Source: Perca fluviatilis
Lineage: Eukaryota > Chordata > Actinopteri > Perciformes > Percidae
Length of the DNA: 64,000 bases
Direction: 5' to 3'
Assembly: GCF_010015445.1 (NCBI RefSeq)
Contig: NC_053127.1
Span: forward strand, 5,758,004-5,822,003
Positions 17,674 through 51,345 of this stretch are shown in pieces (position 1 is the stretch's first letter; every line of letters begins with the position of its first letter). Position numbers and translations under genes: made by a program. The notes beneath the pieces are model-generated. The model saw only the letters and a list, made by a program, of their open reading frames with translations, was not told where the DNA came from and did not search any database.

Positions 17674-18297
17674 ACACCCGCCGAATGTTATCATTGGATT
17701 GATTGGGCGTTATCAGTGGTTATCAGCCTCATAGAAATGGGTCAGTAGGGGCCTGCTGCGCCTACTGGTAGGCTCAGAAGGCTGTTATCATCCATTCGCA
17801 TGGTTAATCACGGATAAATACACAGAAGACTCCAGATCCAATCCCAGAACAATCCAGGTCGCCGCTAACCGGAAGTCTGCTGGATAACGGCATATGTATA
17901 CACAGGTAAGACCATTAAAATGAGAGCCTTTAAACTGTGAATATTTAGTCAATAAGCGTCAATAAGCGAAAACAATACAGAAAAAATGTTTTATGATGGC
18001 GTGATATTAGTGTTGACATGAGATAATGTTGCGTTGCCGTTAGCTAACGTTATTGTATTATTAGCCTACATGCGTTACGTTAGCATAAAAAGCGTTACTA
18101 ATTAGCATGTTTTGTTTTAGCAAATGTCCCCATTAGCTTGACAGTAAGTAGTTTTCCACACTGTTCACAGTGTAAATAGTAGTTTTCCACACTGTTCACA
18201 GTGTAAATAGTAGTTTTCCACACTGTTCAGTGTTAATAGTAAGGCCTATTGCATGTAGCTGCTCATTAACGTAATCATACGCCTATTGAGTGAAATA
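17674..18297 (+). repeat. Left terminal inverted repeat of the KDZ element
   Basis: The reverse complement of 50377-51345 matches this segment from 'acacccgc' through 'gttatcagtggttatcagcc', 'aatccaggtcgccgctaacc', 'attagcatgttttgttttag' and 'gcctattgagtgaaata'. Internal triplicated 'tagttttccacactgttcac' units lie at about 18150-18240. Identity is high for the first 270 bases, then broken by insertions in the other copy. Confidence 0.9.
17820..17906 (+). promoter_or_regulatory. Putative TIR promoter and 5' exon end, left
   Basis: An ETS-type motif CCGGAAGT lies at 17869-17876. About 30 bases on comes 'cacag|gtaag', a consensus splice donor with its GT at 17906-17907. The first acceptor downstream in the plus-strand gene is at 18682, directly before its ATG. 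I infer that a 5'-UTR exon starts in the TIR near the ETS site. The same arrangement occurs in mirror image at the right end. Confidence 0.55.
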
Positions 18298-18682
18298 TTC
18301 AAACCCAAAACGTATTTTTATGGTTGCACCAAGGATTGCACCTGTAGCATTGTGGATACATCAAATGGACTCCAGGTGTCCAGAGTTTCATTGTATATGC
18401 ATATCCATGAATTTAAGCCTGCCATGTTTGTTATAAGATGACTGTCAGTCTATTAGTAATAGATAGACTGTGGTGTCTATGTTGCTTATTTGTAAGTGAG
18501 CATTGAGGGAGGCTACCCTAAAAATTCATTGTTGTCCTGAACATTGAACTTCAAAAAATAATACCCAAAAGCATAGGTCTGTCTGTCTCTATGTATGTTT
18601 GTATGTCTGTCTGTCTGTCTGTGTAACGTTAATACAAATCTGTCATGTGCAAGTTTCTCTCTGTTTGTGTTTCGGGTTGAAG

Positions 18683-19577
18683 ATGGCCCAGAGAGGTAAG
18701 CCTTACAATTGCTAATCTAGGAGCATTAAGCGAAAGGTATGTATGAGAAAGATAGTATGATATTAAAATACATAATTAACAATGACACTTGTTTTTATTA
18801 CTGATTTATTGCTGACCAACTTTTTCTTTATTATTAAACAAGAGAGAACACAAATTAATGAAGAACAAAGGGAAACTTTGAAAACATTTTTTGAGGATGG
18901 AATGACACGGGTTGGTTCCCCCCTCATATCAAGAGCTGCATCAGATACTGGTTTGGAAACCAGTGTCATAGAAGTAAGGTTTACTTTAATTCCACGCTTA
19001 CAATCAACATATCAAATAAATACATAATTCTTCTGTACTACTGGTAAAAATCTAAAGTTTTTGTTAACATCCCTTCTCTTCTCTGCTTATCTTCATAGTT
19101 GTCAGATTTCTCTACCAACCCTTATAGCTGGCTCAGGTTTGCCTTGGACCAGCTCTTAGTTATGCTGTTATAGTTTTAGACTGCCGGGGCACTTCCTTCT
19201 TTTGACACACTGAGCTCCTCTCTCCTCTCTCTATCCATCTGTGTGCATCCATGTCCTAGAAATGCTTGTTACTAACCTAGCTCTGGGGAGCTTATTCCCT
19301 GGAGTCCTTATGTTTTCTTACCCAGCAGTTTTCCTTGGATTAGGATGGCAACTAAATCATGGTTGCAGCTGCTGCTGGGGTCCTGCTCAACGCCCTGCTA
19401 TGCCCTGCAGTGCCCTGTTACGTCTCGCTGCGCCCCCTGCAACGTCCTGCTAACGCAGCTACACCCTGCAGTGCCCTGCTCGTCCTGCGGCGCCCTGCAG
19501 TGCCCTGCTACGTCCCTGCTATGCCCTGCTACGTCCTGCTACACCTTGCAGTGCCTTTCAGTGCACTGCTACGCCTT

Positions 19578-19616
<39 letters not shown>

Positions 19617-22600
19617 CTCTTGGGGGTAATTATTGTAATTGTATATAACATCATTCTGCTTTACTGCTGGTAAAAATCTAAAGTTTTTGTAACATCCCTT
19701 CTCTTCTCTGCTTATCTTCATAGTTGTCAGATTTCTCTACCAACCCTTATAGCTGGCTCAGGTTTGCCTTGGACCAGCTCTTAGTTATGCTGTTATAGTT
19801 TTAGACTGCCGGGGCACTTCCTTCCTTTGACACACTGAGCTCCTCTCTCTTTCCATCTGTGTGCATCCATGTCCTAGAAATGCTTGTTACTAACCTAGCT
19901 CTGGGGAGCTTATTCCCTGGAGTCCTTATGTTTTCTCACCCAGCAGTTTTCCTTGGATTAGGATGGCAACTAAATCATGGTTGCAGCTGCTGCTGGGGTC
20001 CTGCTCAACGCCCTGCTATGCCCTGCAGTGCCCTGTTACGTCCTGCTATACCCTGCTACGTCCTGTTACACGCAGCTACAGCCTGCAGTGCCCTGCTACA
20101 CACTGCTATGCCCTGAAGTGCCCTACTACACACTGCTATGCCCTGAAGTGCCCTGCTACGTCCTGCTATGCCCTGGAAGTGCCCTGTTACATCCTGCTAC
20201 GCCCTGCAGTGCCCTGCTACGTCCTGCTATGCCATGCTACGTCCTGCTACACCTTGCAGTGCCTTTCAGTGCCCTGCTACGCTATAAATGGACGGACACA
20301 CACACACACACACACACACACAACCGTAACTTTGCTGGGTAATTATTGTAATTGTTGGGTATTTGGAAATTATAGTGTGGTCTAGACCTACTCTATCTGT
20401 AAAGTGTTATGAGACAACTGTTATGATTTGATACTATAAATATAATTTAATTGGATTCAGTTTAATTAACGTATATTTTTCTTTTTTGTTTTGTTTTCTC
20501 TCTTTCAGAACTGGATTGGTAACTACAAGAGGTCCTTTAAAGCTTGTTCTAAGCCAGGGCCCCAAAACAAAACTTTACACAAGAGAGCTGTCACCGTACA
20601 ATCTTTTTGTCGGGACATTCTCAAAAACAAAGGTGATGAACAATATTTAATTGATGCTTTTAATTGTTATACTAAATGGACTGTTGTTGTACATAGCCGC
20701 CCTGTTTACATCAGGGGTTCACAAGGGTCATTAAACAGATTTTCAAGAAAGAAGTTTTGCCAAGTATTTCACAGACTCAGTGTAAGACTGCTGTGTCTAT
20801 TGAAAAGAATCATCAGGTGATCTACTGCAAACGTTATATTTTTTTGCAGCGTTGTTACAGGGTTTTATAAGCCAAGTGAACCAGTGTGTTGGACAGATTG
20901 ACAGATTTTCTCTGTATGAATTTACTATATAAAGAGATGCTGACTCTATGGTGTTAAGTTTTCTGTTCATCTATTTTGGTTCTCAGGCACAATGAATGAC
21001 ATTAAGGGTAGGTGGTCCACATTGAGGGAAGATGTGAAGAAGCAGTATGTTCAAGGGAGGCGCAGCACTGAAGGCACATGGGCAGTCACAGGACCTTAGC
21101 CCTGAGATGAGAGATCTTAAAATAAAAGGGCATCTGAAGAACCTGAAGTTAGAGGTTTGGAAAGAAGCTTTCTTTGCTAGGCATTAGTGGTATCATTATA
21201 GTATTAGATGTAAGGGATGATTGATGGCAATTGTGATGTGAGCAGTACATTGTGACAGACAATTGAAGTGTTTATCTGTAGATTATTTTAGAATTTCAAA
21301 TGAATTCATCCCAAATAAACATTCCATCTGATTTTTTAAACATCCAGGGTATACTAAATCAGGTCCTCCGATGATTCACGTACTCAAACCATATCCCCCA
21401 AATGTATGTTATAAGCAATTATTAAACATGAAATGGCAAGCATAAAATAAATAAAATAAAAGAATAAACACTGTAAGACCACAATTAATCTGTAAAACAA
21501 AGTAGTTGGTTCAAGTGTTTACAAGGCTATCGGCATCAAATATTCTCACATTAAAAAGATTGTCGAAGGCTTATACCACCCCTCTCAAACAAAATTTTTA
21601 CTGGTTGGGGGCTAGTCTATTCAGATCAAGGTGGTCAATTGAAACATTAGTAGTCACATGCGGCTATGAGTCCATTAGAATTAAAATTAACCTTTTGCTC
21701 CATTTTGTTTATAATCAATTATTTACTATTTTTGTGGTTTGCTTGTTTCTCTAAATATTATAAAGGGTGTCCAAGCTGGAGCTGCGGGTGGTGGAGACTG
21801 CCATTTTATCTTTGACACTCAAAAGGCCAGCTTAGAGGTCTTTGAAACGAGTAGCAAGAAAGCCACTGTGTTCCTTGACTCAACGGACACAGTGAACAAT
21901 TTTGCACTGCATTTCAAAGGTAATATTTGTTGTATGAAAGTCCACAGAAATGGACTCCAGCCCCATAATAGTGCAAATATACATAAAACAGTTTTATGGA
22001 ATTAATTGTTGTCTGTTTTCACATCTGCAGCCAGCTCCTCAGCCAGCTCCTCAGCCACCCCACCTACTAAAGAGCCCATCAGTGTGCTTTTGAAAAAGTA
22101 CAAGATCTTTTCAACCAAAGATATAGTAAGCATACGGTTCAAACACTTTTTTATTATCAAATTAATAAATTATGTATCTAATGTACCCATCAACCATAAG
22201 ATTATGACACTTTAGCAAAACTAGCTTTCAACAGGAGGGAAGTCAGAATTATCCAACTGTGTAACATGTGCATGCATATGTGTGCCCATGTCTTTCAGAG
22301 GAGGCCGGAGGTACTGGAAGGCTCCCCTACCTATCCATTTTAAATAACGATGATGTAACAATCAAAGTTGCTGGGCTGCCCATTGGACTTGACCTCAAAG
22401 CCCTCCTTCTACGGAAGAAACCAATTAGAGGCCATTTTGGCAGCTGCTGACCAAATTTCATTTGAAATAAGTAAGTGATATTAACAGTGGCTGTTGTCTT
22501 TCTTCACTTGTGTTCCTGCAGACCATTTGGCTCTATGCAAAGTTGGGAAAATAAGTTAACTAAAGAATAACACAGGCCTTCATGTGAGTCTTTGTATAGT

Positions 22601-25600
22601 GCTGGGCCATTGCAGACATCCAGAACAGCTTTATTGCATTTGCGTCTTTGACAGTTTGTAATGATTGTTACAATATTCCTCAGTTGGAGTTTTCATCATT
22701 ATGGGGGGTTCAAGTCCCAGTACGGACCAAAGTACAGATTGTGGATTGGTAGATCTAGAGATGCCAGTTCCTGGGCACTGCCAGCAAGGCACCGTGCCCC
22801 AACCCACTCACTCTGACTCTCCATTTGTGCATGAATAGGTCCTGAGCATGTCTGTGTGTGTTTCAGGCCTGTGTGTAGTGATTTCTAACAAACAGAGTGT
22901 ACATTGTAATTTCCCCACTGGGATCAATAAACAGTATAAATTAATTAAAATGATAGTATAACACGTTTTCTAAAAAGGTACCTCTCCAGAATATCCTGTA
23001 AGTGTTTAGTTGAATGTGACTGGGATGGCCCTTGGCAATGGTTTACATATTTTTCTCATTTTGCTCATTAAACTATTAACTATAAACTATTAAACTAATC
23101 TTCATTGATAGTGCTATGTGATTATTTGTTCTCCAGTAATGCGGGAAGACCAATTATTTGTTATGCTCATATTACACATGTTTTCCTTTTTCCTAAACAT
23201 ATCAATTAGATACAACACAATGCAACCCCACTGACATGGCAGCAGAGGAATGTCCGAGCACATGGACGCAGAAGGTACGCTGAGTTGTTTTATTACCTCC
23301 TGGGCACTGCCAAAGGTGATCTTTAGCAAGGCAACCAACCCTCCCAACTGCTGGAGATCAATACAAAATATGAATTAAAAAATGTAATTAAATTTAAATG
23401 AATATTTAACATTAAACTTAAGAAGCACATGTCACTACATATGTAACTTTTGTAATTCAACCTCATTACACAGCATATTTGACCACTGTCCACATGTCTG
23501 ATGCAAATTATATGATGAAATTTTCACCTTTGTGTCATGGTTGAATGTCCTTAAATCAACAGACACAGCAGTTTGCATCCAAAAGAAGTCAGTGGAACAG
23601 ATCTTTGAGGCTATGTGTGGAAATGGTATTTCTTGCAATCTTAATACATTTTGAAAAACAATTGCACAAATCATTTACTTGTTTGAAAATTACAATATAT
23701 AGATACAATATTTATCCAAGTGACATTAAACAGCTTCTATAAGCTTGGTATCCTGATCATTTCACACTTTAAATTGGCTGTTGAGATTTAGATTTAGATG
23801 TTTACTATAACCATTGACAGTATACATTTTAATTAAGAATCAAAATTTGCATCTAGAAAGATGTTATTGTGTTTTCTTTTATGTTCTTTAGGTGCACAGC
23901 AGATGGAAGGAGAGTCCTCAGAAGCCACTAATGTAGCCATTGTGATGACTGAAGATGAAGGTATCTGTCCAAACTGTGGTTATATATATTTAACCAGGAA
24001 GTCCAATTGATACTAATAATGCCTTTTTCAAGCAGCAAAGATAAAACAAGTAATTTCAAAAGGTTACAATACTGCAATATGTAATCACAATTATGTTATT
24101 ACAGGTGAAATACTGGTTGAACCTAAAATGCATTTGAAAAAAAGAAGTTGAAACAACTGAAAATAAAATATAAGAACAAAGGTTCTGACATGAAAATTGG
24201 GGATATTTCCATGTATATTCAAAAGGCCAGGGCGGGCCCCGTTTGGTAGCACATTTACGGTTATGAAGAAAAAGGTTGGTGCGGCAAGAAAAGTGGGGGG
24301 GACGCGCGGGGTGAAGTGTATTTCGTCGCGCAACATTCCTCCCAATAGTCGGATTATAAAGGAATTTCCATCAGGCAAAATGTTCCCCAGTTTTCCGCAA
24401 CCTTTTGACCACACGTGTGATCATGCGTAATGCTCCCAAAGGTTTTGTAGACAGTGTTTTAGTGAACTCCGATGGTATGCCCGTTTCCGAACCTAACCCA
24501 GTTATGGTTTTCCTGAACCCAACAATCCCGTTCTTGCTAAACCGACCCAGAGCGGTCGCAGAGCCGGCGAGGGGCTGCCAGCAAAGGTGGGGGGCAGAGG
24601 ATCCTCCCACACAGCTGCTCCCCTGCCTCTCCCGGAAATGTGCTGTGTGTGTGTGTGGTGTCTGTGTGTGTGTGTCTCTGTGTGTGTCTACCATGTATGG
24701 CCAATGCGTCTTAATGTGGGCGTGTCTGATTGTAGGTGTCTGTGTGTGGGAATGTTGTCTTTCTGCACCTGCTATTCCAACAAAGTTACCAAATTGTTAC
24801 ATTTCAAGCACTTTCACCTGTTTTGCACCAATAATGATCCAAAATCTTGTTTCCTATTTTTTACCTTTTTAATAGTTGAATTTCCTTTCATACAAAAACG
24901 AAAATTATCATATGATCATAAATGTGATCTCACAGGGGTAAATGGCAAATATAAACCATAAATGATGTATATATCATTGGTAATTGAGCTAAATCTGTTA
25001 AGTATTAAGTTTGTGTAACAAAAATATGGACACCACACAGGGTTAAAGCTTCCAAACAGGATTTAGTTTGGATGTTCTACCTCTGTTAGAAGCATCGATC
25101 TCACAATCACTGAATCGGGATTTTTTCCATTTTTCCGTTTTCGTGATTGGTGATCAAAGGGCTCCTTTCAAGGCTGGAATATTCATTGATTGATTATCAT
25201 GGACCTTATTAGGACAATTTTTGCAAACAAAATCTTTCAGAATAGAATCTATGCACAGTCTTATAAATGAGGCCCCAGGCCTGTTATCTATGAGAGAAAA
25301 AAACGACAGTTTTGTGTTTTCTGACCATGGTAACTATTGATAAACTGAGGTGCAGGTCACCTGATAAAATGTGTCACTAAATAATTACTTAAATTATCTC
25401 CCTGATTTAACATTTTCAGAAATTATTTTTCATTTCCCCACCCCCTCAGCCCCCTCTGATTGTCAAACCAGCTCAATTTAAATGTCAACTGGGCTCCACA
25501 GTCTTTTCTGACTTATTTTATTGTTATTTAACTTTGCTTGGTGTTTAACCCGTTAAAAAATCTAGGGAGATTTTCATTTGGCAAAAATTTTATAAATGAA

Positions 25601-25880
25601 ATGGCTGCCTTAGAGACATTGTTTTATATATGTTAATGATTTCAACTAACTGGTTTCACTTCCAAAATATTTCTGTATGTTTTTCTTTCCGGTAGATGGA
25701 GGCAATTTGTGCTGTGTCTGCCGCATCCATTCTGACGACCAGAAGAAGAATGCTAGCAAAGAAGTGGCGTTCATGGTCTCAGTGCTCAGTGTGTCAATCA
25801 TGGTCCCACACTGCCTGTGGTTTTAAAAGAAGCATGTGCCTTCATTGCCGGGGGTCAACACACCATGCAAAACACCCTGA
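18683..25880 (+). CDS. KDZ-element accessory gene: homeodomain-like, HMG-box-like and PHD-like protein (spliced)
   Basis: Eleven exons are recognised: 18683-18695, 18843-18973, 20509-20632, 20987-21154, 21766-21919, 22031-22125, 22299-22470, 23210-23274, 23563-23625, 23892-23960 and 25696-25880. All have GT/AG borders, and intron phases agree once single-base indels are allowed for. The roughly 410-residue product starts MAQRERTQINEEQRETLK. Residues 8-55 resemble a homeodomain, with recognition helix VIENWIGNYKR. 'SPYNLFVGTF' plus 'KGRWSTLREDVKKQY' in the next exon resemble an HMG box. The C-terminus has 'CCVCRIHL' then 'WSQCSVCQSWSHTACGF', a PHD-like zinc cluster. Indels of one or two bases break exons 3, 4, 7, 8 and 11. 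It probably binds DNA or chromatin for the transposon; that role is inferred and I do not recognise a named gene. Confidence 0.7.
19035..20345. repeat. Two tandem units of about 0.65 kb in the second intron
   Basis: The strings 'aaatctaaagtttttgttaa' (about 19049) and 'aaatctaaagtttttgtaac' (about 19673) start two near-identical units. Each continues through 'agttgtcagatttctctacc' to a decamer array of 'ctgctacgccctgcagtgcc' type (19380-19575; 20000-20280) and a CA run. The array creates false open frames rich in Cys, Tyr and Pro. The downstream tail near 20380-20460 resembles a fish LINE 3' end. Confidence 0.8.
19578..19612. repeat. (CA)n microsatellite
   Basis: Perfect CA run of about seventeen units, closing the first intronic tandem unit; a matching shorter run lies at 20293-20322 in the second unit. 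Confidence 0.9.
22697..22950 (+). mobile_element. SINE-like retroposon (unit A)
   Basis: The segment has a B-box-like 'gggttcaagtcccag', then 'gggcactgccagcaaggcac' and a tail 'tttccccactgggatcaata' 'aacagtataaatt'. These are hallmarks of tRNA-derived fish SINEs with a LINE-like tail. The A box is not clear. A second copy is at 34637-34890 because of the tandem duplication. Confidence 0.6.
24227..25276. mobile_element. MITE of about 1 kb, unit A copy with damaged left end
   Basis: The right end 'cttataaatgaggccccagg' matches the intact copy at 36182-37193. At the left, where the other copy has 'gggcctcatttataaaac', this one reads 'gggcgggccccgtttggtag', followed by a G-rich patch unlike its partner. 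No transposase frame is present. It lies in the last intron of the accessory gene. Confidence 0.6.
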
Positions 25881-27904
25881 TTTCTAGCAGTCTATATCTA
25901 GGTCCATTGCCACCACGAAAATTCCCACGGATGTCCCTCTTTTCAGCTGATGTCCGTCCCTTCCTGTTTCTTTGTGTTGCGGCAGTAGTTTTTGTGTTCT
26001 CTGCAGGGTAAATCCAGACAGCTAGCTAGACTATCTGTCCAATCTGGGGTTTTCTGTTGTAATATTTACGTCTAGCATTACACAAGTTTGAGGTTTTGTG
26101 TTGATGGCCCCCACTGCATCAGCTAAAAACACACACTCCGTTTAAAAAGAACCCTGGAGTGTTTGGTGGGAAGAGTCCAGCTTGAAGTGAATTGAAAAAA
26201 TCAGTGAAAGCTCATTTGAACTCTGGTGCATGTCTGTCTGGTTGTATATGTGTATTATCTGGTTGGCGGCAGCCCGGAGTTTGACGGCGTGATTTAAAGC
26301 CTGTTAACATTTATTAGGTGCCTGTTCATCATTTTTCTTAAAAATAGACTCCTTGTGAATCTTGCCTCTACATGCCTTTGGATTACACTTATATATTTTA
26401 ATTTACCCTAGTTAAGATTCTTTGTACTTTATTGTTGTTTTATTGGTTCCATCAATGTGGTCCCTTTCAAACCGTACAGTAATGGGAACATTTAAAGTTA
26501 TATTGTAATGAATTGAGTATACCTGTTGGGAAATAAAAGGTATCCTATTTCTCAGTTTCATTATTGGCTTACCTATTCAATACCCAGGGTCACTGTATGA
26601 TTTGATGTTTTACATAACTTAAACTTATTTTCCACAGTCCTACTACCCTTAGACTGTTAGAATGTCCTTGTTTATTGTCACTAGTAGGTATTTTGCAAAA
26701 TTGATATTGAAAAGAGGGTTTATGTCAAAGGGATTAGTAAACTTAACGAAAGCGTAAGCATACAGTTGGAAGACTACACTTTATTTCTAATTTAAAAATA
26801 AATTAAAAATAATGGTTTGGATTTTCAAATGGTGCAGCATGACATTAAGTATCAAAGAAAATATAGAAAGTACAACAATTGATACATCAACAAGATAGAA
26901 GAAGAAAAGCTACAGCAAAGAAAGGAAAAAAAACATAAGATAAAAGATACAGAAAGCGTAAGTTCCGCTACACAACACAACCCAACAGCTAGCACAAGAC
27001 AACCATTGTTTTCATTGGTTTGCTATGGAGCTTCCTTTAGCTGAGAGCTGAAACCATTGACATATGGCTGAAACCAGCTAGCTTGCATCATGGCTTGCAT
27101 GACGTACTTCCGCTCACAAGTATTCTTTATGCACTGTAATGTTAAGCTTTTTCTTTCTAACGTTTTAGAGAAAATATGAAAGTGTCCGTGACAACTCAAC
27201 AATATAACGGGTTTATGTTAAGGATATCCGTTTTAATTATTATCCATTGATTCTGAGAAGTACATTTTATTACCGTCAGTTTGGATAGCGGAAGGCTAGA
27301 GGCAGCGTTGAGATCATGGTTAAGAGCTGTCCACCATGGAGGGGCTCCATTCCCATTTCAAATTGCAGCCGGTTGGGCGCAGCCCACATCAAATGCCACT
27401 AGACTATATCTCTATTAAGAAAAAGACGTTTAATAGCCTGTGATTGGTAAAATTTTATTTATGTCATTTGATTGTATACTTCCAAAGAATATGTCGCTGG
27501 GGATATGTTACTTACTATTAAATCAGCGTTCTTGAAACATAAAACAATTTCTACATAGGCCTACCATCTGGTTGGATTTTTACAGTACTAGGCTTAAATA
27601 GGCTATGCTATAGATTTGCCCAAAACATAGCTGTAGCATTTAGTTGCTCACAGTGACAGGTGTTGGAAGGAGGAAAATGTTAAGAGAAAAAACTAAATAT
27701 TTGCCTTTTGTAAAGCTCAAAATAAAAAATTTCAATGGAGGAATAAATAGCCTACAGAGAGATACAACAGGGCCTAGGGCTACAGTATGTGTCCTCTTGG
27801 TTTTGAATAACACACTAATAATACGGTTTGATTTTACAACCTAATAGCAGCATTAACATAATAGCCTATGCATACCATAGTTTGTCCCAAACAGAAATAA
27901 ACTC

Positions 27905-27949
<45 letters not shown>

Positions 27950-29548: not shown

Positions 29549-29563
29549 CTAGTTGCTGTCATT

Positions 29564-29601
<38 letters not shown>

Positions 29602-30421
29602 ATACCAGTGGTCTGTATGCTTGACATGGGGAGGTCCAGAGACAGGTAGGGGGTTTCTGGGACGACATAACTACATGTTGCAGGAACAATGTCTGGTACA
29701 TGTTGGTGAAACATCCATGGCATGATGTAGCTTTCTTTCCAGCTGTTTGAGACGTTGGATTAGAGCAGCTTTTGCACCAGGCTGCTCTGTGTCATTGATG
29801 GCAGAACGCACAGAAAGGCATGCTGCTGATTGAGGTGTTCAGTTACAGTTCTCATTTCCTTGTAAAGCATGTGCTTTTCCTCAGCTGCCGATGTCCTCGC
29901 TATGTAAGGCATCAATTCCACGCCTTTTCAGACTCCTTGAAACATCATCTTCTTCAATCTAGTAGAAGACATAAGGGAAACAAAGTACTATCTCATGTTA
30001 GCAGGTGGTTGATGACAATGATTGCCAGGTAGTTGTGAAGTTTACTAAAGCGGTTGTCAGATGGTTTACTAAGAGTGATTGCAGTGGGGTTACTAGGTTT
30101 AGGTAACTAGACTTTGAGATTTCATCAGAGCAGAAGTAGACAGGCCAAGAGGGATCGCATGCTTCCTGAAAATCCAATTGTTTGCAGGGAAGATGCTCAT
30201 CTGCGGTGGCCACTGAATACTGTTGTATTCCTTGATTGCTTAGTTCTCAGTCTCTTGTTGGAGTTGGCTACCTGCTTGGACAGTCTAATGGCAATGCCCT
30301 GCCCATCTGAAACAAAGTTAGAAAACACACATGCAAAGAAATGAATTCATTAGTTTGTATTATGGTCCTTTGAAAAGTTAAAATTCAAATCTTAAAATCT
30401 ACTTATTGTATCTACTTATCC

Positions 30422-30787
30422 TAGAGCTGGGCAATATATCAATATTATATTGTCTTAGATTTTGGATATCGTAATATCATAAAATGGCATAAGTGTCTTT
30501 TCCTGATTTTAAAGGCTACATTTACAGTAAAGTGATGTCATTTTTCTGAACTCACCAGACTGTTGTAACTGTTCTATTATTTGCCTTTACCCACTTATTC
30601 GTTATATCCACGATTACTGCTGATTATTTATCATATATTATATTTTATCATTTATCTAAAATCTCATTGTGTAAATATTCTGTGAAAGCACCAATAGTTA
30701 ACACTACACTATCGTTGTGGTATCGATATCTAGGTATTTGGTCAAAAATATCATGATATTTGATTTCTCCATATTGCCCAGCCCTAA
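30422..30787. mobile_element. hAT-like MITE in transposase intron, unit A
   Basis: Starts 'tagagctgggcaatatatca' and ends 'ccatattgcccagcccta'. Same family as 10345-10710 and 42276-42637. It sits in the intron between the counterparts of transposase exons 13 and 14, so a MITE has inserted into the giant transposon. Confidence 0.75.
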
Positions 30788-39780: not shown

Positions 39781-39821
<41 letters not shown>

Positions 39822-41414
39822 AATATGTTTACACAGTCAGAAACAAAAAAACAAACAAAAAGCTTCATTTTATATATTAAGCCTTGAAAGTGCTCTCTGA
39901 AACTACACCTGAGATGGCTTGTGTCTGTGAAATGAGAAAATTAAAACTTTGTTGTAGAGTTGAACCAAATACATTGTTGGAAAGGTCTTGTCCTGGAGAG
40001 TAACATATGTTAGTATAAAGATTCTTCATGGCTCCTGCTTTGAATGACCGCCCTTTGAAATGTCACTCTGGTGCATGTTTAAATGCTTGTAATTCAGTAA
40101 CAAAAGGGGTTAGAGACATGGGACCAAGTGTTATAAAAAGCTCTTGGCCTCATCTATCAAGTCATTATAGTCAACAACTGGGGGTGGTGTCAAATACTCT
40201 TAAAATGTAATTTAATTAATTTTAACCAATTTAACAATTACATATTTGAAATATGATTACATAGATGCGTTTACTATACACCTAAACCCCTCACTCTACT
40301 CTCATCTCAATATTTACAACCTCCAATTCTAAGAAAAACGGTAATGTTTTAAAAACTACAACTCCCTGTAGCCCGCCCATGTAGCTTGATACAAATCAGC
40401 ACTACAGTTGTAGTTCTTCTGGTTTGCAAATTAGGGTTGTAAACTAGGGTTCTGAAAAGATATATCTACTGAATATATCAAATATCTAGTAAAGCCGAAC
40501 TAGTAATTACACGGCATCTAGATGTTCTATGTTAAGAAAAAATTTATATGTTGGTTTATTTCAGATATATAGCTAGAGCTCAACATTGACTACCCACTTT
40601 TTGAATGGCTCTGCTTCCGGAAGTGTTTTTCCCCCCATTCGAAAATAGCTGATATAAAGAGTTTTAAGCCTGTAACCATGACAACCAGCTACGAGATGAA
40701 TAGTGAGCATAAACCATTTGATTCGGCACAAAAAAAACATTTTGAAAACGGCAAGAAAAGGCATATATATCTATGGAAAAGGCAAAGGTAGCCGTTCGTA
40801 TTTTTGCGGGGTAAACGTTTCTATGGTAACAGCGAGATTGGACAATCAGAGACGTTGCTGTTACGCGTAGCATTGTGGGTAGTGTTGTTTTGTCAATGTA
40901 CTTCCGAAAACCTTCTGCTACCAAAGACTGAAAAAAACTTTATTTAAGTGTCCTTCTTAGAAAAACATACTGTACAGATATATTATGGTATTAAGTGTTA
41001 AGTGTAAGGTCATTCAAAACACCAAAGCTGGCTATACATTGAGTACAACAACGCTTTAAAAAGTTACTTAGACAGCAGCTTCTACAAAAAAGTGTTTATT
41101 TATTGTCCAAAAAACAGCTTGTTTAAATTTTTTTTTTTGGTTCACATTGGCAGGACAGTTCAGAGCTCAAGAAAAACAAACATGGACTTTTTGCAGTTAG
41201 ACTAATCAACTAATCAGCAACACAGCATCAATTAGATCCAGATCAGTTACAATGAAAACACACAGAACCTAAACTGTCAGTTTGTTGAATTTTGGTTAGC
41301 GCTGAATTAAGGAGACATTTTGAATGATAAATAGCAAAGCATACAAGCTTGCTCAAACTATTCATTAAAAACCAGGAAGCAGCAAACCAGCCCTAGTCAT
41401 GAGTGCTTACAGTG
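37792..41414. other. Region between convergent genes, unit B
   Basis: Counterpart of 25881-29548, with the same repeat fragment at 37800-37975 and a TG run at 39785-39819. No coding exon is recognised. Confidence 0.6.
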
Positions 41415-41429
41415 CTAGTTGCTGTCATT

Positions 41430-41467
<38 letters not shown>

Positions 41468-44400
41468 ATACCAGTGTCTGTATGCTTGACATGGGGAGGT
41501 CCTGAGACAGGTAGGGGGTTTCTGGGACGACATAACTACATGTTGCAGGAACAATGTCTGGTACATGTTGGTGAAACATCACAGTGGCATGATGTAGCTT
41601 TCTTTCCAGCTGTTTGAGACGTTGGATTAGAGCAGCTTTTGCACCAGGCTGCTCTGTGTCATTGATGGCAGAGCACAGAAAGGCATGCTGCTGATTGAGG
41701 TGTTCAGTTACAGTTCTCATTTCCTTGTAAAGCATGTGCTTTTCCTCAGCTGCCCGTGTCCTCATATGTAAGGCATCAATTCCACGCCTTTTCAGACTCC
41801 TTGAAACATCATCTTCTTCAATCTAGTAGAAGACATAAGGAAACAAAGTGCTATCTCATGTTAGCAGGTGGTTGATGACAATGATTGCCAGGTAGTTGTG
41901 GTTACTAAGCGGTTGTCAGATGGTTACTAGAGTGATTGCAGTGTGGTTACTAGGTTTAGGTAACTAGACTTACAGTTTCATCAGAGCAGAAGTAGACAGG
42001 CCAAGAGGGATCGCATGCTTCCTGAAAATCAATTGTTGCAGGGAAGATGCTCATCTGCGGTGGCCACTGAATACTGTTGTATTCCTTGATTGCTTGTCTC
42101 AGTCTCTTGTTGGAGTTGGCTACCTGCTTGGACAGTCTAATGGCAATGCCCTGCCCATCTGAAACAAAGTTAGAAAACACACATGCAAAGAAATGAATTC
42201 ATTAGTTTGTATTATGGTCCTTTGAAAAGTTAAAATTCAAATCTTAAAAATCTACTTATTGTATCTACTTATCCTAGAGCTGGGCAATATATCAATATTA
42301 TATTGTCTTAGATTTTGGATATCGTAATATCATAAAATGGCATAAGTGTCTTTTCCTGATTTTAAAGGCTACATTACAGTAAAGTGATGTCATTTTCTGA
42401 ACTTACCAGACTGTTGTAACTGTTCTATTATTTGCCTTTACCCACTTATTCGTTATATCCACATTACTGCTGATTATTTATCATATATTATATTTTATCA
42501 TTTATCTAAAATCTCATTGTGTAAATATTCTGTGAAAGCACCAATAGTTAACACTACACTATCGTTGTGGTATCGATATCTAGGTATTTGGTCAAAAATA
42601 TCATGATATTTGATTTTCTCCATATTGCCCAGCCCTAACTTATCCACAGCACTTTACCTGGATATTTTCTTTTCAGATGGAGGAGGACTGCTCTCTCCCT
42701 TGATTCAGTTCTTGCCTTGCATATAAGTTGGCCTCTGAGGTCACTGTCAACATCTTTAAGGGTAGACTGGAAGTCTAAATCAGATTCTTTCCATCTTCTC
42801 CCAATGCGGTGTTTTGTTTCAATGTTCAGCAGAGAGTTCTCAATTCTACAATGGTCATCAAGTAAATATTATTAAATGTTATTTAGACACTTGATCAGAG
42901 AACAGCAACAGACAGATACAGCCTACTTACTCTGTTCCATCCTCCATGTACAACTCACGAGTTCCAGATCTATACATTACAAGAAGTACAGCACAAGAAT
43001 TCAGTAGTTACCTACCAGAAATCATTACTGTGGTACACCTGACCAAACACTGTAGAAGTTATAAGGAAGGCCTTGGTGGTACTGCAGCATTATAGCAACT
43101 CTTCATTTATAACAGGAATCTTCAACAGGGGGTCTTCAGAGTCAATGACCCAAAATTGTTGGGTCTTAAAATGAATCCAACATATTATGAGTTGAGCTGC
43201 TTATAGGTGGGCCTATAGGTAATTAATAAAAAAGTTGGAAGAGTTTCCTAAAAAATATGCTGTTATTGTCTCACCCATAGCTATGTAATCACACCTAGGC
43301 TTCCATGTTGAAGCACATCAGTAGGTTACTTAAAGATGGGTGTAATTACTATATAGTCTTACATCAACACATTGAAGTCTTACTTGAACTTGTAAAACTG
43401 AATCAGATTGGTGATGTAGTCCCTTTTCCATCTACAGACAGTGTCTGGAGAACAGATAAAGACATTACTACTGCTACTGTTACTTCTTTACCCTCACAGT
43501 TTACAGGATTGTATTTCATTACTGTACATGGAAAGGTACAGTGCCTTGGGCGAAAGTCATTTCCCCCTTGAACTTTTCGACCTTGCCACATTTCAGGCCT
43601 CAAACATAAAGATATAAAACTGTAATTTATTGTGAAGAATCAACAACAAGTGGGACACAATCATGAAGTGGAACGAAATTTATTGGATATTTCAAACCTT
43701 TTAAACAAATAAAAACTGAAATATTGGGGTGCCAAAATTATTCAGCCCCCTTAAGTTAATACTTTGTAGCGCCACCTTTTGCTGCGATTACAGCTGTAAG
43801 TGGCTTGGGGTATGTCTCTATCAGTTTTGCACATCGAGAGACTGACATTTTTGCCCATTCCTCCTTGCAAAACAGCTCGAGCTCAGTGAGGTTGGATGGA
43901 GAGCGTTTGTGAACAGCAGTTTTCAGTTCTTTCCACAGATTGTCGATTGGATTCAGGTCTGGACTTTGACTTGGCCATTCTAACACCTGGATATGTTTAT
44001 TTGTGAACCATTCCATTGTAGATTTTGCTTTATGTTTTGGATCATTGTCTTGTTGGAAGACAAATCTCCGTCCCAGTCTCAGGTCTTTTGCAGACTCCAT
44101 CAGGTTTTCTTCCAGAATGGTCCTGTATTTGGCTCCATCCATCTTCCCATCAATTTTAACCATCTTCCCTGTCCCTGCTGAAGAAAAGCAGGCCCAAACC
44201 ATGATGCTGCCACCACCATGTTTGACAGTGGGGATGGTGTGTTCAGGGTGATGAGCTGTGTTGCTTTTACGCCAAACATAACGTTTTGCATTGTTGCCAA
44301 AACGTTCGATTTTGGTTTCATCTGACCACAGCACCTTCTTCCACATGTTTGGTGTGTCTCCCAGGTGGCTTTTGGCAAACTTTAAACGACACTTTTTATG

Positions 44401-46050
44401 GATATCTTTAAGAAATGGCTTTCTTCTTGCCACTCTTCCATAAAGGCCAGATTTGTGCAGTATACGACTGATTGTTGTCCTATGGACAGAGTCTCCCACC
44501 TCAGCTGTAGATCTCTGCAGTTCATCCAGAGTGATCATGGGCCTCTTGGCTGCATCTCTGATCAGTCTTCTCATTGTATGAGCTGAAAGTTTAGAGGGAC
44601 GGCCGGGTCTTCGTAGATTTGTAGTGGTCTGATACTCCTTCCATTTCAATATTATCGCTTGCACAGTGCTCCTTGGGATGTTTAAAGCTTGGGAAATCTT
44701 TTTGTCTCCAAATCCGGCTTTAAACTTCTCCACAACAGTATCTCGGACCTGCCTGGTGTGTTCCTTGTTCTTCATGATGCTCTCTGCGCTTTACACGGAC
44801 CTCTGAGACTATCACAGAGCAGGTGCATTTATACGGAGACTTGATTACACACAGCTGGATTCTATTTATCATCATTAGTCATTTAGGTCAACATTGGATC
44901 ATTCAGAGATCCTCACTGAACTTCTGGAGAGAGTTTGCTGCACTGAAAGTAAAGGGGCTGAATAATTTTGCACGCCCACTTTTTCAGTTTTTTATTTGTT
45001 AAAAAAGTTTGAAATAGCCAATGAATTTCGTTCCACTTCATAATTGGGACCCACTTGTTGTTGATTCTTCACAAAAAATTACAGATTTATATCTTTATGT
45101 TTGAGGCCTGAAATGTGGCAAAAGGTCGAAACGTTCAAGGGGGCCGAATACTTTCGCAAGGCACTGTAAGTATAACATATTTGCAATAGTCTTTGTTAAT
45201 AATATTCATGACCTTATTACAATATTAAAGACATTCACACAGTCACTTCAGTTGCATACGTATTGGTTTCTGTTTCTGTTGGGCTAGTTCGATCTCCCTT
45301 TTCTTCCATCTCTCCATGTCTCGCTCAGAAACCAACACTAGGCAACAACAAAATAACAGGAAACAAGACAATAAAAAAGAAAAAAAGAAAACCGTCATTG
45401 CTACATACTCACAAAATGCGCTTGTAAATGGAATCTAAAATTCTTCCATTCACAACTATTGTTGACTGCTTCTTATGTGCAGGGTTTACCTGGTGCCTCT
45501 CTGATGACAGATGAGATGTCTTCTTGAGCGAGAATTGATATTTTCTCTGCTCTGTCTAATCTTTGCAGGAGCTGGACCTCTGTAAAGAAAGTTTAATGTA
45601 CTTATGCTTACCAATTTGTGTGTGATCAGCTTAACTCCAAAATATATCAATTGTTTAGACATTAAACAACTTGGCACAGTGGTAACACTGAACAACAAAT
45701 TTAGACAGGTTATACAGCAGTGGACAAACCCAGGTCAGTTGATTTCCTCCGTCCATAATGTAAAGGGCATCAGTCAGCGGGCCCAGGCGGTGAGATGGAG
45801 TCATCTCCTTTGTGACTCTGGCAAATCTTCGGAGGAAAGACCACAGCCTTTCCATTCCTTCCCCATCTGTGAGCCCAAACCCTTCAAGCCGCCTGGTGCT
45901 GTACTTGATCTGTGATTAAAGCAAAGTCTTAGAATATCACATGCACTGACATTAAGCATTATTCTACTACAGTGGAAACTGCTTATAGTGATCATGGTTA
46001 CAACGACCAACTGCCTATATGGATCAAAAAGCTTGGGACAGAATAATTCA

Positions 46051-46091
<41 letters not shown>

Positions 46092-49000
46092 ATAAGCTCG
46101 TCATGTGATATTTTCCTCTACTCACACCACTGTGGCTCAGTGAGTTATTTTGCCTTCCATTTCTTGCTCTGCTTGCGGTTTCAGACTTTTATGGTGAATA
46201 ATTATTGGCCCTGGTCTCTCACAGGAGCAGGTAGACCTACTGTAGGTTTTATGAGTGGAGTGTAATGCTTTCACCCTGACCTTTCAGACTTGAAGGGCTT
46301 GGAGCAGGAGAGGGCCCTGATACAGTTTATGTTATTTTAAATCAGTAGCAAAGCTGTCCATTTCATTACTTTATATTAATGTAATAATTATAGAAATTAG
46401 ATTTTAATCAGCATAAAAAATAAACAAATTTGCTTATAACAATCAATTTACAGTTATTAACTTGACCCGGAGAGATATGAACACTGTAAGCGGTTTCCAA
46501 TATATCACTAAACAGTGCATCTCTGAAACAAGTCAAACACTAGGTGGGGAAATGTTAGAATAAAGATTACTTTAAGGCATTTGTACTTATCTCAGGTGTA
46601 CAGTGGATAGACATAAAAAATGGATGCCAAAAAGAGAGCAAATTATGAATTTACCTGGCAGGGCAATTTGTGTCCATAAATGTGAAAAGCTGAATGCGGC
46701 CAAGGAGAGGTTTTGTGGTATGCCCTCCCCTGATTTCTAGTTGAACACAGTATGGCATAATTTTGAGTTAATTTGTCAAGGTCTTTTATCAAATCAATAA
46801 TTCAGTTTTACACACAAAAAAAAAAGTACTTACACGCAAATGTGAGGCAACAACACAGGCAATGTCATAGACTACTCTGAGGTGTATGTTCTTGTCCTCA
46901 CGTCTTCGAAGAAGCTCATCAATGACATACAGAGGATAGGCTAATCTATTTCAACACAAAAATGTGAATAATGAAACACTTAATACTGAGGAAAAGTGAA
47001 GACTTAATAAGAACACTCAAAATGATACAAGCATAAATAAAATGAAAATTAGAATGGTGGCAAGGTTTAAATTTTGCAATATTTTGAAATCTCCCATATA
47101 CATTCCATGAGATTAATATTTGGTGATTGAAAAAAAATGTATAAGCTGTTTCCAATTCAAGGTCTGCAGCCTTCGAAGGCTGCAACTGTAGACCGAATGG
47201 CTTATGTTAGGTTCATGTTATCCTACGCATTGAAATTGTTGATAAAACAAAGTCAGTATGGCAGTTTTTGGGGATTTTATAATTCTGACCGTAGTCAGAC
47301 CAATGTCATCAGACTGTCGTCCCCACCAACACTGGTAATACCACAAACTTGTTTTACCATGTTAGCCGCGCTCACACTTTGGAGCAGAGCCATATTTGCC
47401 AGCAACGTCCAACAACATCTGCAGCTGCTACACCGCACAAGCAGCAGACCACCATGGAGAGGTACTCTGCATCAGCGCCTTACTAAACGCTACAAGCAGC
47501 AGACACCATGGAGAGGTACTCTGCATCAGCGCCTTACTAAACGCTACAAGCAGCAGACACCATGGAGAGGTACTCTGCATCAGCACCTTACTAAACGCTA
47601 CAAAGAAATAACGAAGGCAGACATGCTGAGCACTGTCCAGAAGCCAGGTTACCAACCTAGCACTAAACCTGCAGAAAATAGTTCTTCTCAGGTTTCTTAT
47701 ATTTAACATTTTGCACTTTATGAAGCATTTCTTACTTATTACTTAATTTTGCACCTTAATGTTAAGAGATAATTGTTAAGTGTCATTATGATTTTAGACC
47801 TATGTTACATTTTAATTATTTGATTGTTTTCCATGGTTGTGTTGACATTTCTGCTTTTATAACTGAGGGGATTATAATCAGAGGAAGGTTAAGTTTAAAA
47901 TAAAAAGGTTTAAAGTCATTATATTTTTCTCCTGGTCCTTATTTTAAATAGGTCATAAAAAAATATCAATAATTATCAATATCGACCGATATTAAACACT
48001 TATATCGTGATACAGTTTTCAGCCATATCGCCCAGCCCTAGTCAATAGTCATAAATGTCACTACTTGCCTTTCTCCTTGGCTCATGTTGACAAACATTAG
48101 CGGCATTTCATGACGACAGGAAGCTCCAAACACTCCTGTAACATCAAGTTTCTTTGCTTGTTGTTGGGACCTCAGAACGTTGCCAGCCTTGAAGTTACTG
48201 CAGTCCTAAAGATTTAAGGAACTATTCGATTTATGAGCACAATAATGGTCTTCTTCCAGGAGTTACATTTAACATTTCATGGACTCAGATTTTTCAGTCC
48301 TAATACAGTATTCTGCAACTGTGACTAACCTCGTTAGGCTTTGAGCCGTCAGGATGTGAAAGAAGGTATTCCTCTACATCCTTTTCATCAACAAACATGC
48401 GGGTTCCATGAAATGGCTCAACCACACTTGTCCCTGAGCTTTGCTTCCGCACAAGGCCAAAGTTGGCATCCAATGTCACTATCATATCTCCATCTGCCTG
48501 GGAAACAAACATTTACAGTAATCCTGGTTAATCTCATACAGCCTTCATAAATGCAGGTTGTACCAGAGAACACCTGGTTGATACGCTCATACTAATATTG
48601 TCACTATTTTATGATAATACCTTATACAACAATTAACTGATTTTGCGATATAAATTTAATGCCAAAAGGTCATAAAAATGGCAAATATAGTTAATCAAAC
48701 AATAACCATGCTAGAACTACAACCAACCTTTGGACATGCTGGGCATGTGGTCCCATCATCTAAGTGTGGGCAAACATCTACCAAACTTCTTTGTCGAAAG
48801 TGGTAATGCCTAAACTGGGATATGGATTCTCCCACCAGGGCTCTGTAGAGTGCGTTAACCTACAGTATAAGCAGCATTTTCACATCAGTGAAAACCTTTA
48901 CTTTTCATACAATTACACTTCCTAAATAAAGTCCAAGGTGATGGTAAGACATTATTTTTATAGAAAAATATCAATAATAACTTTGCATGTAACTATATAA

Positions 49001-50205
49001 TCCTAGACAGTTCCATAAATAATAATGACGCAGTACAATCAAAGTAAAAGGTCCAATTGTCACATCTATGCGGACTGGTCAGTCTTCCATGAAAGTAACT
49101 AAAATCTTCACTTCATAGACATGACTTCTAACTGACCTCTGCAAACTGACTTACCTCTGCAAGTGTAAGGTTGTTTTTCCAGCGTAAGGTGTTGCAAAAA
49201 CCCTCAACAGAAACCTGACACTCGAGTGACAGACAAACAAAAAGCTCTAGCAGAGGGATGGAAAAGGCTGTCTGGGGCTTGTCCGTGTTGCTGGCCAGAG
49301 CCCATACCTTAGCAGAGTGCAGGCTTCTGGTTCACACGCACACATATTGACAGTGACGGTGCAGAGCTGTCCTGCCAAATAAAAAGAGGGAAATAAAATA
49401 AAAACATAACAAAGTACTACTATAGAGACACATACATTACTCGACATTTAACAGGACTGGATTCCTCAACTTTAAAATTAAATACATTACATACACATTT
49501 TTTCAATGTAAAATGACAAACCTGTGCTGATAATGACCTTCATGTCCTTCATGTACACAGCATGGGTGCTATGGCCTTCAGGTAAGTATAGGAATAACCC
49601 CAGGGAAAACGGCTCATAGTAGGCATTCTGTAAGAAAGATTTATAGCTCTAAGAAAGTTTTTAAAACAGACTGAAGACACAAATAATTGATACAACATAG
49701 TGCTAAAATATTACCATAACAATTTAAAATTACTTTAGTTATGTCTGTATGTATGACTGCATGCTATTATTCTTACATTCCACTTATCAGGTAGGTGCAG
49801 TGAATTTCTGTGAGTCCTCTTCAGACAAGCCTCACAAAAGACTGCAGTTGTGCTGCACTCAATGCACCTATAATCAGCATCTTCTAGGCAGACAACACAC
49901 TGCGTAGTGATTGGTGCTGAACATTCAAATGACACCTTAAGCATGTCATCCTTGACTGCATCCCAGGCATGAATCCCTCTCTTCTTTGCCTTACTGTATG
50001 CAGTCTCAGAACATGAACTAGGTGCCACATCAGATTCAACCTGAGGTGTAACAGATGTGGAAGGGTCTGAAGGGTGGGTCTGTTTGGCGCTGGGTTGGGG
50101 AAGACCTTGACTAAGGTAAGAAACCTTTGCACGGCCAGCAATACACCTCCTCACCACCTTAATCTTAACGCTCCTGAAGCGTGCACTCTTACTAGCTTTT
50201 CCCAT
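41415..50205 (-). CDS. KDZ (Zisupton-like) transposase, 15 exons
   Basis: Exons in transcription order: 49777-50205, 49522-49627, 49155-49371, 48728-48859, 48330-48497, 48065-48205, 46834-46945, 46655-46736, 45730-45909, 45490-45577, 45247-45337, 42931-42969, 42658-42845, 41974-42158, 41415-41822. Borders are GT/AG and phases agree. Allowing for three one-base indels (exons 3, 7, 8) the product is 854 residues. Residues 103-137 form a cysteine cluster (C103, C106, C114, C117, C124, C127, H132, H137) of the CxC type associated with KDZ transposases. The core shows TLDANFGLVRK (D305), VYDIACVVASHLR (D425) and GFGLTDGEGMERLWSFLRR (D477, E479, E482), blocks conserved in KDZ proteins and likely to hold the acidic catalytic residues. 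The C-terminus is helical, Lys/Arg-rich and ends in twelve Asp. It should cut and integrate DNA at the TIRs in the nucleus. The start ATG lies two bases after an acceptor. Confidence 0.9.
41427..41466 (-). repeat. (TCA)n microsatellite coding a poly-Asp tail
   Basis: About thirteen TCA units on the plus strand read as GAT codons in the last transposase exon and end the protein with D12-N-D-S-N. A homologous run is in unit A at 29564-29600. Length polymorphism here would change the acidic tail without shifting the frame. Confidence 0.85.
42276..42637. mobile_element. hAT-like MITE in transposase intron, unit B
   Basis: Starts 'tagagctgggcaatatatca' and ends 'ccatattgcccagcccta', between transposase exons 13 and 14. 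Same family as 10345-10710. Confidence 0.75.
43118..43240. repeat. Fragment of the hAT-type MITE family seen at 56584-57062
   Basis: 'ggaatcttcaacagggggtc' and 'aacatattatgagttgagct' followed by 'gcctataggtaattaataaa' match the element at 56584-57062 in order. The copy in unit A is at about 31265-31385. Only the left part of the element is present. Confidence 0.6.
43539..45166 (-). mobile_element. Tc1-like transposon, complete (1628 bp)
   Basis: The element starts cagtgccttg and ends caaggcactg, flanked by the TA target duplication at 43537-43538 and 45167-45168. Inverted similarity extends inward for about 200 bases, including 'cctgaaatgtggcaaaaggt' near the right end and its complement near 43580-43600, as in IR/DR-type Tc1 elements. 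It is inserted in the intron between KDZ transposase exons 11 and 12, in the same orientation. Confidence 0.93.
43756..44775 (-). CDS. Tc1-like transposase, full-length ORF with DD34D triad
   Basis: The 339-codon uninterrupted frame has the usual Tc1 length. Residues 1-110 form the paired-like bipartite helix-turn-helix region with a GRPSK basic link at 59-63. The catalytic domain shows VLWSDETKIERFG (D152), a glycine-rich KHGGGSIMVW, and FQQDNDPKH (D243). The third block reads NPIDNLW (D278), 34 residues after D243. Tc1 proteins normally have Glu here (DD34E), so the triad is DD34D. This may reduce or abolish activity, although mariner transposases naturally use DD34D. The intact frame suggests a young insertion. 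Confidence 0.93.
   Translation of the reverse strand: MKNKEHTRQVRDTVVEKFKAGFGDKKISQALNIPRSTVQAIILKWKEYQTTTNLRRPGRPSKLSAHTMRRLIRDAAKRPMITLDELQRSTAEVGDSVHRTTISRILHKSGLYGRVARRKPFLKDIHKKCRLKFAKSHLGDTPNMWKKVLWSDETKIERFGNNAKRYVWRKSNTAHHPEHTIPTVKHGGGSIMVWACFSSAGTGKMVKIDGKMDGAKYRTILEENLMESAKDLRLGRRFVFQQDNDPKHKAKSTMEWFTNKHIQVLEWPSQSPDLNPIDNLWKELKTAVHKRSPSNLTELELFCKEEWAKMSVSRCAKLIETYPKPLTAVIAAKGGATKY
46054..46089. repeat. (TG)n microsatellite
   Basis: About eighteen TG units upstream (in transcription sense) of transposase exon 9. The surrounding interval 45910-46650 is intron 8 and shows nothing else. Confidence 0.9.
47451..47606. repeat. Three-copy 54-bp tandem repeat in transposase intron 6
   Basis: The unit 'catggagaggtactctgcat' 'cagcgccttactaaacgcta' 'caagcagcagacac' is repeated three times. 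It makes open frames on both strands with threefold internal repeats, which I take to be chance. The intron (46946-48064) also contains a MITE fragment at 47940-48036. Confidence 0.8.
47940..48036. repeat. hAT-like MITE fragment
   Basis: 'atatcaataattatcaatat' through 'ccatatcgcccagcccta' is one end of the family at 10345-10710. It lies just downstream of transposase exon 6. Confidence 0.55.
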
Positions 50206-50333: not shown

Positions 50334-50335
<2 letters not shown>

Positions 50336-50818
50336 GCACACAGAGTGTGCTTTTGGGTATTATTATTATTTATTTTTATTTCACTCAATAGGCTTATGAT
50401 ATAGCTTCTGTGAAGCGTTAATGAGCAGCTACATGCAATAGGCCTTACTATTAACACTGGGAACAGTGTGGAAAACTACTATTTACACTGTGAACAGTGT
50501 GGAAAACGACTTACTGTCAAGCTAATGGGGACATTTACTAAAACAAAACATGCTAATTAGTAACGTTTTATGCTAACGTAACGCATGTAGGCTAATAATA
50601 CAATAACGTTAGCTAACGCAATTGCAAAAAATATCTCATGTCAACACTAATGTCACGCTACACGATATATGCAATAGGCCTTACTATTTACACTGTGTAA
50701 ATTGTGGAAAATTACTTAATTTCAAGCTAATGGGGTCATTTACTAAAACAAAACATGCTAATTAGTAACATTTATGCTAACTTAAAGCAAGTAGGCTAAT
50801 AATAGAATAACGTTCGAC

Positions 50819-50992
50819 TTACGTGCAGTTTAGAAAAAAAAACGGAGTGTCCCAAATGACGAGGGTCTTATTTGAGACAGGTTATGGTAATGGTTAAGAT
50901 TATGGAAGCACAGGTGGTTTAGCAGGTTCATAGTTAATTAAGAACGTTGTATGGGGAATTTGGGACACTTAACTGCACGTATACCATAACGT
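50819..50992. mobile_element. Small palindromic MITE inside the right TIR
   Basis: The left end 'cttacgtgcagtttag' with 'gtgtcccaaatgac' and the right end 'atttgggacacttaactgca' 'cgta' are inverted. Absence from the left TIR shows a later insertion. Too short to code. Confidence 0.55.
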
Positions 50993-51109
50993 TCTCATGT
51001 TAACACTAATGTCACGCCATCTTAAAAAAAATTCTGTATTGTTTTCGCGCTTGTTGGTCGTTATTGACTAAATAATCACAGTTTAAAGGCTCTCATTTTA
51101 ATGGTCTTA

Positions 51110-51196
51110 CCTGTGTATACATATGCCGTTATCCAGCAGACTTCCGGTTAGCGGCGACCTGGATTGTTCTGGGATTGGATCTGGAGTCTTCGCTCG
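51110..51196 (-). promoter_or_regulatory. Putative TIR promoter and 5' exon end, right
   Basis: Mirror of the left arrangement. The ETS-type CCGGAAGT reads on the minus strand at 51140-51147, and the donor 'CACAG|GTAAG' has its G at 51110. The first acceptor towards the transposase is TTTCAG ending at 50208, two bases before the ATG at 50205. I infer a shared, TIR-encoded promoter and non-coding first exon for both element genes. Confidence 0.55.
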
Positions 51197-51345
51197 TATT
51201 TTACCGTGATTAACCATGCGAATGGATGATAACAGCCTTCTGAGCCTACCAGTAGGCGCAGCAGGCCCCTACTGACCCATTTCTATGAGGCTGATAACCA
51301 CTGATAACGCCCATTCAATCCAATAATAACATTCGAAGCGGGTGT

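Follow-up and report, generated by a model that had tools for sequence, protein, structure and literature searches.

Harbinger-type two-gene transposons encode a transposase and a separate Myb-like DNA-binding partner. The closest described systems with a KDZ transposase are Zisupton, with target duplications of 8 base pairs (bp), and Kyakuja, with 7-bp target duplications and CA...TG ends without inverted repeats, according to the accessible part of PMC12730594. Nematode relatives of Zisupton, with 18 and 31 exons, have terminal inverted repeats but no target duplications that could be detected, and the Zisupton proteins of nematodes and fish reach up to 1400 amino acids (aa), in the portion of PMC9297572 available to us. 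The platyfish Zisupton contains the cysteine cluster CxC7 (PMC12062965, seen in part), and GTF2IRD2 combines a host factor with a hAT transposase in one fused protein (PMC10641963, seen in part). Here we describe a KDZ element in a 64,000-nucleotide stretch of Perca fluviatilis DNA, the whole of which is called the window:

C16:5758004-5822003, forward strand: the stretch under study

C16 is the contig of the window, and C10, C7, C267, C1 and similar labels are contigs bearing copies in the genome searched (951 Mb, 297 contigs). The element probably represents a cut-and-paste family of the KDZ superfamily, with a unit of about 21.7 kilobases (kb), long inverted repeats, 7-bp target duplications and two convergent spliced genes. 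The family is present in many copies of common anatomy, some of them near-identical and some flanked by target duplications, and includes short derivatives that keep the element ends. Unexpectedly, its second gene would encode a homeodomain-like part and a GTF2I-type repeat, a content that is newly recognised here.

The KDZ transposase gene

41415..50205, minus strand: KDZ transposase gene, 16 conceptual exons (exon model and Pfam)
50205-49777, 49627-49522, 49371-49155, 48859-48728, 48497-48330, 48205-48069, 46945-46834, 46736-46655, minus strand: exons 1-8
45909-45730, 45579-45490, 45337-45260, 43444-43384, 42969-42931, 42845-42658, 42158-41974, 41822-41415, minus strand: exons 9-16
43537..45168, minus strand: Tc1-type element in intron 11, common to the C267 copy

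The conceptual protein matches the Pfam KDZ profile PF18758 at 153.7 bits (cut-off 26.6), covering positions 2-213 of 217, and contains two cysteine clusters above their cut-offs, CxC2 (50.2 bits, cut-off 27) and CxC1 (44.7 bits, cut-off 26.9). A first-pass annotation of these letters had proposed a KDZ transposase of 15 exons with a CxC-type cluster and three one-base corrections, and had named a comparison with KDZ profiles as its check; the profile match, the cluster and the multi-exon KDZ gene all hold, but 16 exons are modelled. These have AG acceptors and GT donors throughout, one donor being GC. The three one-base disruptions of the frame lie in exons 3, 8 and 9 and, when they are read through with X, the protein comprises 870 aa. 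The D, D and E of the blocks LDANFG, VYDIAC and GEGMERLW are presumably the catalytic residues. CxC7 was not among the Pfam matches at E up to 1, the presence of a CxC7 model in that Pfam copy being unchecked, and no TET/JBP domain was found in the pieces scanned with Pfam.

All 16 exons were recovered in C267, C10 and C7, exon 10 being incomplete in the last, and exons 1-8 were recovered in C1. C267 has open frames for exons 3 and 9, and C1 for exons 3 and 8. Since each disrupted exon is open in at least one other copy, the disruptions would be peculiar to the window copy or its assembly. Other copies have damage of their own. In C267, exon 5 contains a stop, the frame is broken in exons 6 and 8, and an asparagine replaces the aspartate of LDANFG, the first conserved one; exon 1 is broken in C1, as are several exons in C10 and C7.

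The Tc1-type element of intron 11, whose ends occur in the C267 copy too, contains a 344-aa transposase open reading frame (ORF) that runs uninterrupted between two stops (43756-44790, minus strand; PF01498, DDE_3). At least two other groups of KDZ elements, of different exon layout, are found in the same genome (loci L001-L008) and are 28-44% identical to the window transposase over the aligned parts.

Element ends, copies and target duplications

17674..18297, plus strand: left terminal inverted repeat, terminus CACCCGC..., outer 350 bp plus inner part
50377..51345, minus strand: right terminal inverted repeat, with an internal duplication (self-alignment of the window)
18147..18241, plus strand: subterminal 31-bp repeats with the dyad CACTGTTCACAGTG, left end
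50446..50511, minus strand: subterminal 31-bp repeats, right end

The inverted repeats of about 0.6-1.0 kb noticed in the first-pass annotation bound the element, with ends 5'-CACCCGC...GCGGGTG-3'. The two arms of the window copy are 93% identical over the outer 350 bp and 82% identical over the inner 0.3 kb. Apart from the left end of the window copy, 28 ends were fetched, its right end included, and 13 of these match the 22-base terminus at 21 or 22 bases; the terminus is placed at CACCCGC because the arm alignment, the right end of the C1 copy and the fetched ends agree on it. The dyad motif CACTGTTCACAGTG is confined to the neighbourhood of the element ends in the examined stretches of the window, C7, C10, C267 and C1.

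The sequence bounded by these repeats is not unique: the left terminal repeat has at least 43 matches in the genome, the two of the window included, a lower bound as 40 of 108 candidates were scored. Divergent short relatives exist (80-86%), and short derivatives retain the element ends. Among the long copies, the second window copy of the 11.9-kb direct duplication described below differs from the C10a stretch by 0.32% substitutions over 6.9 kb, and from C267 by 0.95%. In the C267 copy (loci L014-L016), the terminal CACCCGC is missing at both ends, and the right end breaks off at the equivalent of window position 51175, where it joins unrelated, coding-looking sequence.

The C10 copy has AGGCAAG on both sides, a 7-bp target duplication found by eye. 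Eight end pairs within 2 kb were present among 29 loci; four of them show matches at 7 of 7 flank bases, two, whose flanks are identical, match at 6, and the last two, where the ends are poorly called, match at 1 and 4. Exact 7-bp target duplications are thus seen at five insertions, C10 and four short copies. The clean duplications, together with the near-identity of copies, suggest that the family moved recently. Two observations detract from this picture, as no target duplication was found at the termini of the window copy, nor, by eye, at those of the C7 copy. For the window copy an 8-bp duplication was also looked for and not found, in a test that is weak (in the 8-mer comparison, at most one mismatch is seen for 31% of random region pairs).

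The size of the target duplication bears on whether the element is Zisupton in the strict sense, with 8-bp duplications and CxC7, the 7-bp duplications being either misread or a variant within that lineage. The literature, in sources seen in part, names Zisupton as the KDZ lineage of fish, and the long repeats and many exons fit it; however, the four short insertions that match exactly at 7 bp match at just 1-3 of 8 bases when 8 bp are compared, the duplication of C10 is 7 bp long, and CxC7 is not among the listed Pfam matches, with the caveat on the model given above. We therefore consider this identity unlikely. The first-pass annotation had called the element a KDZ (Zisupton-like) transposon, of which the KDZ assignment stands and the likeness to Zisupton is not established, the duplications being of 7 and not 8 bp.

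The predicted second gene

18683..24137 (end approximate), plus strand: accessory gene, 11 exons, convergent to the KDZ gene
18683-18695, 18843-18973, 20509-20781, 20987-21154, 21767-21919, 22031-22125, plus strand: exons A1-A6
22299-22470, 23210-23274, 23563-23625, 23892-23960, 24105-24137, plus strand: exons A7-A11
18683..20781, plus strand: exons A1-A3, homeodomain-like N terminus
22031..22470, plus strand: exons A6-A7, GTF2I-like repeat, disrupted in the window copy

A convergent accessory gene had already been noticed, with nothing stated about its product, and is located on the plus strand, from 18683 to about 24137. An open version is found in C10, where 11 exons join in phase from ATG to stop and encode 411 aa; seven exons of the window (A3-A8 and A11) have lengths unlike those of their C10 counterparts. 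The GTF2I-like repeat, at residues 267-337 of the C10 protein, scores 50.8 bits (Pfam cut-off 27), and the domain alone, in the spliced reading of C10 and C267, scores 52.2 bits against the same cut-off. When it was compared with solved structures, nine TFII-I or GTF2IRD1 repeats were matched at E up to 0.003, the best being a GTF2IRD1 repeat (E 6.1e-11). The N-terminal part is reminiscent of a homeodomain, with Pfam scores of 19.1 bits for the ORF around A2 and of 24.6 and 25.1 bits for spliced N-terminal fragments (cut-off 22.9), and its best homeodomain match among solved structures is 2da4 (E 1.3e-6). A literature search of partly accessible sources, most subscription journals lying outside its coverage, turned up no transposon that pairs a homeodomain with a GTF2I-like repeat.

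Both domains are typical of host transcription factors and the homeodomain score is marginal, as would be expected if these were host exons caught by chance and lying outside the transposon's gene. This explanation is very improbable, however, because the A1-A3 protein is matched at 11 places, the window included, 8 of which stand beside a terminal repeat among the matches listed (those on C6, C19 and C11 have no such neighbour among the same matches); because C10 and C267 have GTF2I exons that are open and do not differ, and these exons occupy the same position, disrupted, in C7 and in both window copies on C16; and because the eleven accessory exons join in phase to a stop. Three points count against the gene as modelled: the homeodomain scores 21.6 bits on the full 411-aa protein, just below the cut-off; the A3 donor was picked to suit the reading frame of A4, a nearby donor not fitting; and the splice junctions are conceptual throughout.

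With regard to mechanism, the KDZ transposase would perform the cutting and joining, and the second protein might act as its DNA-binding partner, either recognising the subterminal dyad repeats or tethering the complex to host chromatin. DNA binding is the most likely activity of the second protein, with two candidate targets, the subterminal dyads and host chromatin; the chance that it binds the element ends is about even. The core RGATTR reported for TFII-I repeats (PMC3438194, seen in part) occurs 3 times per 350-bp terminal repeat versus 1.75 times per kb in the window, and near the terminus in only 14 of the 27 ends examined, so that RGATTR in the terminal repeats as a TFII-I-type target is a weak lead. 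A more far-reaching proposal is that of a separate vertebrate KDZ lineage, defined by 7-bp duplications and long repeats, with two components and a homeodomain/GTF2I protein dedicated to end recognition or chromatin tethering, in which the GTF2I-like repeat shares ancestry with the TFII-I factors and the transposon was possibly the donor; we hold this to be quite improbable. If the second gene is a working partner, this would be a KDZ element employing a TFII-I-type module and, if true, it would offer a testable route for such a domain to pass between host transcription factors and transposons.

Other features were observed in and around the accessory gene. The intron between A2 and A3 contains a local tandem duplication with a 10-bp CCCTGCTAYG minisatellite (19022-20355). 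About 255 bp at 22798-23053 are present in both window duplicates and C10 and not in C267, which we read as an insertion or deletion polymorphism between copies. An inserted element with ends GGGCCTCATTTATAA was recognised by eye inside the 3' region of the gene (~36185-37200 and 24230-25300). A PHD-like finger after the gene (25.7k and 37.6k) was considered and rejected, as PHD_4 scores just 11.2 bits, where the cut-off is 30.6, and the gene in C10 ends before this point.

The 11.9-kb duplication and the length of the unit

22039..33969, no strand: first copy of the 11.9-kb direct duplication, more error-rich
33966..45738, no strand: second copy, its private differences nearly all in its first kb
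33840..34110, no strand: junction of the two copies, 4-bp overlap TCAG, probable assembly join

The first-pass annotation had described a giant element with a 33.7-kb unit, a length inflated by an 11.9-kb direct duplication that had gone unnoticed. The two copies of this stretch are 93.5% identical, and KDZ exons 10-16 and accessory exons A6-A11 are carried twice, A6 being shortened in the second copy. Between the Tc1-type stretch and its counterpart in the first duplicate there are 26 insertion events and 12 deletion events. Subtraction of the duplication gives 33.67 minus 11.93 kb for the window and, in C10, which is also duplicated, with other breakpoints and over about 6.3 kb, 28.02 minus 6.3 kb; C7, which like C267 is not duplicated, measures 21.78 kb. 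From these lengths, the family unit is about 21.7 kb and not 33.7 kb, the extra length being a duplication that resembles an assembly join.

The differences between the duplicates are unevenly distributed. When their alignment is divided into segments of 100 columns, 41 of 120 are free of substitutions, against 2.6 expected; the ratio of transitions to transversions is 2.3 in segments with 1-3 substitutions and 0.91 in those with at least 8, and substitution-free blocks longer than 300 bp hold 3-11 small insertions or deletions (indels) each. Private differences were counted in an alignment of six element stretches. In the second window copy, the first kb holds 58 private substitutions and 48 private indel columns, against 12 and 16, respectively, for the other 11 kb. 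The counts for C10a are 1 and 4 in its first 8 kb, followed by 37 and 99 private substitutions in the two 1-kb bins adjoining its own junction. The C10b count declines from 46 beside its own junction to 4 at the opposite end. The C7 copy is noisy or diverged over the whole stretch.

The duplication is probably an assembly artefact in which contig ends were joined without merging, since the C10 breakpoints differ, private errors crowd the junctions, and C7 and C267 are unduplicated. The 33.7 kb of the window copy would then reflect two contig ends that lie within the element and were placed end to end, leaving their 11.9-kb overlap unmerged. Alternatively, the 33.7-kb element might be genuine, the product of an internal tandem duplication at a 4-bp microhomology that arose independently, with other breakpoints, in C10. 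Neither the window nor the fetched C10 stretch contains an N, the TCAG overlap is present at the window junction, galnt10 (the host gene, see below) on both flanks implies that the scaffold order is right, the C10 copy has a matching 7-bp target duplication, and the two window copies differ far from the junction too. A genuine duplication is nevertheless distinctly improbable: the private substitutions and indels of the second window copy and C10a nearly vanish away from the junctions, those of C10b decrease with distance, and duplications with different ends in two of the four long copies examined would be a coincidence, the other two, C7 and C267, having none. The reading as unmerged contig ends has a difficulty of its own, in that the first window copy is noisy beside the junction (34-45 per kb) and equally so in parts of 36-40 kb, and this noise far from the junction is not explained by it. 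Multi-exon transposons may thus look far longer than they really are in error-prone assemblies.

Host gene and surroundings

The element is placed, from the order of exon matches, inside intron 1 of galnt10, with the KDZ transposase gene in the sense direction, because exon 1 (window 56139-56020, minus strand) is found on one side and exons 2 and 3 on the other, all on the same strand. Exon 3 lies ~77 kb to the left (locus L055, 85% over 46 aa), and exon 2 is a weaker match at the same distance and locus (40% over 35 aa). We take all three matches to be galnt10 by their likeness to a GALNT10 protein sequence. The window contains two minisatellites with 47-bp units, at 8074-8407 (7 copies) and 60128-60648 (11 copies), the latter also matching C1:541111-541586. 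A scan with Rfam gave no matches at gathering scores, and no relatives were confirmed in the viral contigs searched.

Comparison with known systems

The combination of a transposase with a separate DNA-binding partner, a role proposed here from sequence, is shared with Harbinger-type transposons, which differ in having an unrelated transposase and a Myb-like partner instead of the homeodomain-like part and GTF2I-like repeat. With Zisupton, the window family has in common the KDZ domain, a cysteine cluster, many small exons and terminal inverted repeats. It differs in its target duplications (7 instead of 8 bp), possibly in the cysteine clusters (CxC7 in platyfish Zisupton, none among the Pfam matches listed here, the model's presence being unchecked), in the length of the transposase (870 aa, versus proteins of up to 1400 aa in the available portion of PMC9297572) and in the presence of the second gene. 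The fungal Kyakuja elements share the 7-bp target duplications and the 5'-CA...TG-3' termini, but are described without terminal inverted repeats in the accessible part of PMC12730594, whereas those of the window family measure 0.6-1.0 kb, and Pfam gave no TET/JBP domain in the pieces of the window family that were scanned. Given these mixed features, the window family is best filed, on present sequence, as KDZ with no finer lineage. Finally, GTF2I, GTF2IRD1 and GTF2IRD2 share the GTF2I-like repeat with the accessory protein, in which one repeat was detected and which is encoded inside the transposon; GTF2IRD2, in which a hAT transposase is joined to a host factor (PMC10641963, seen in part), represents the reverse case.

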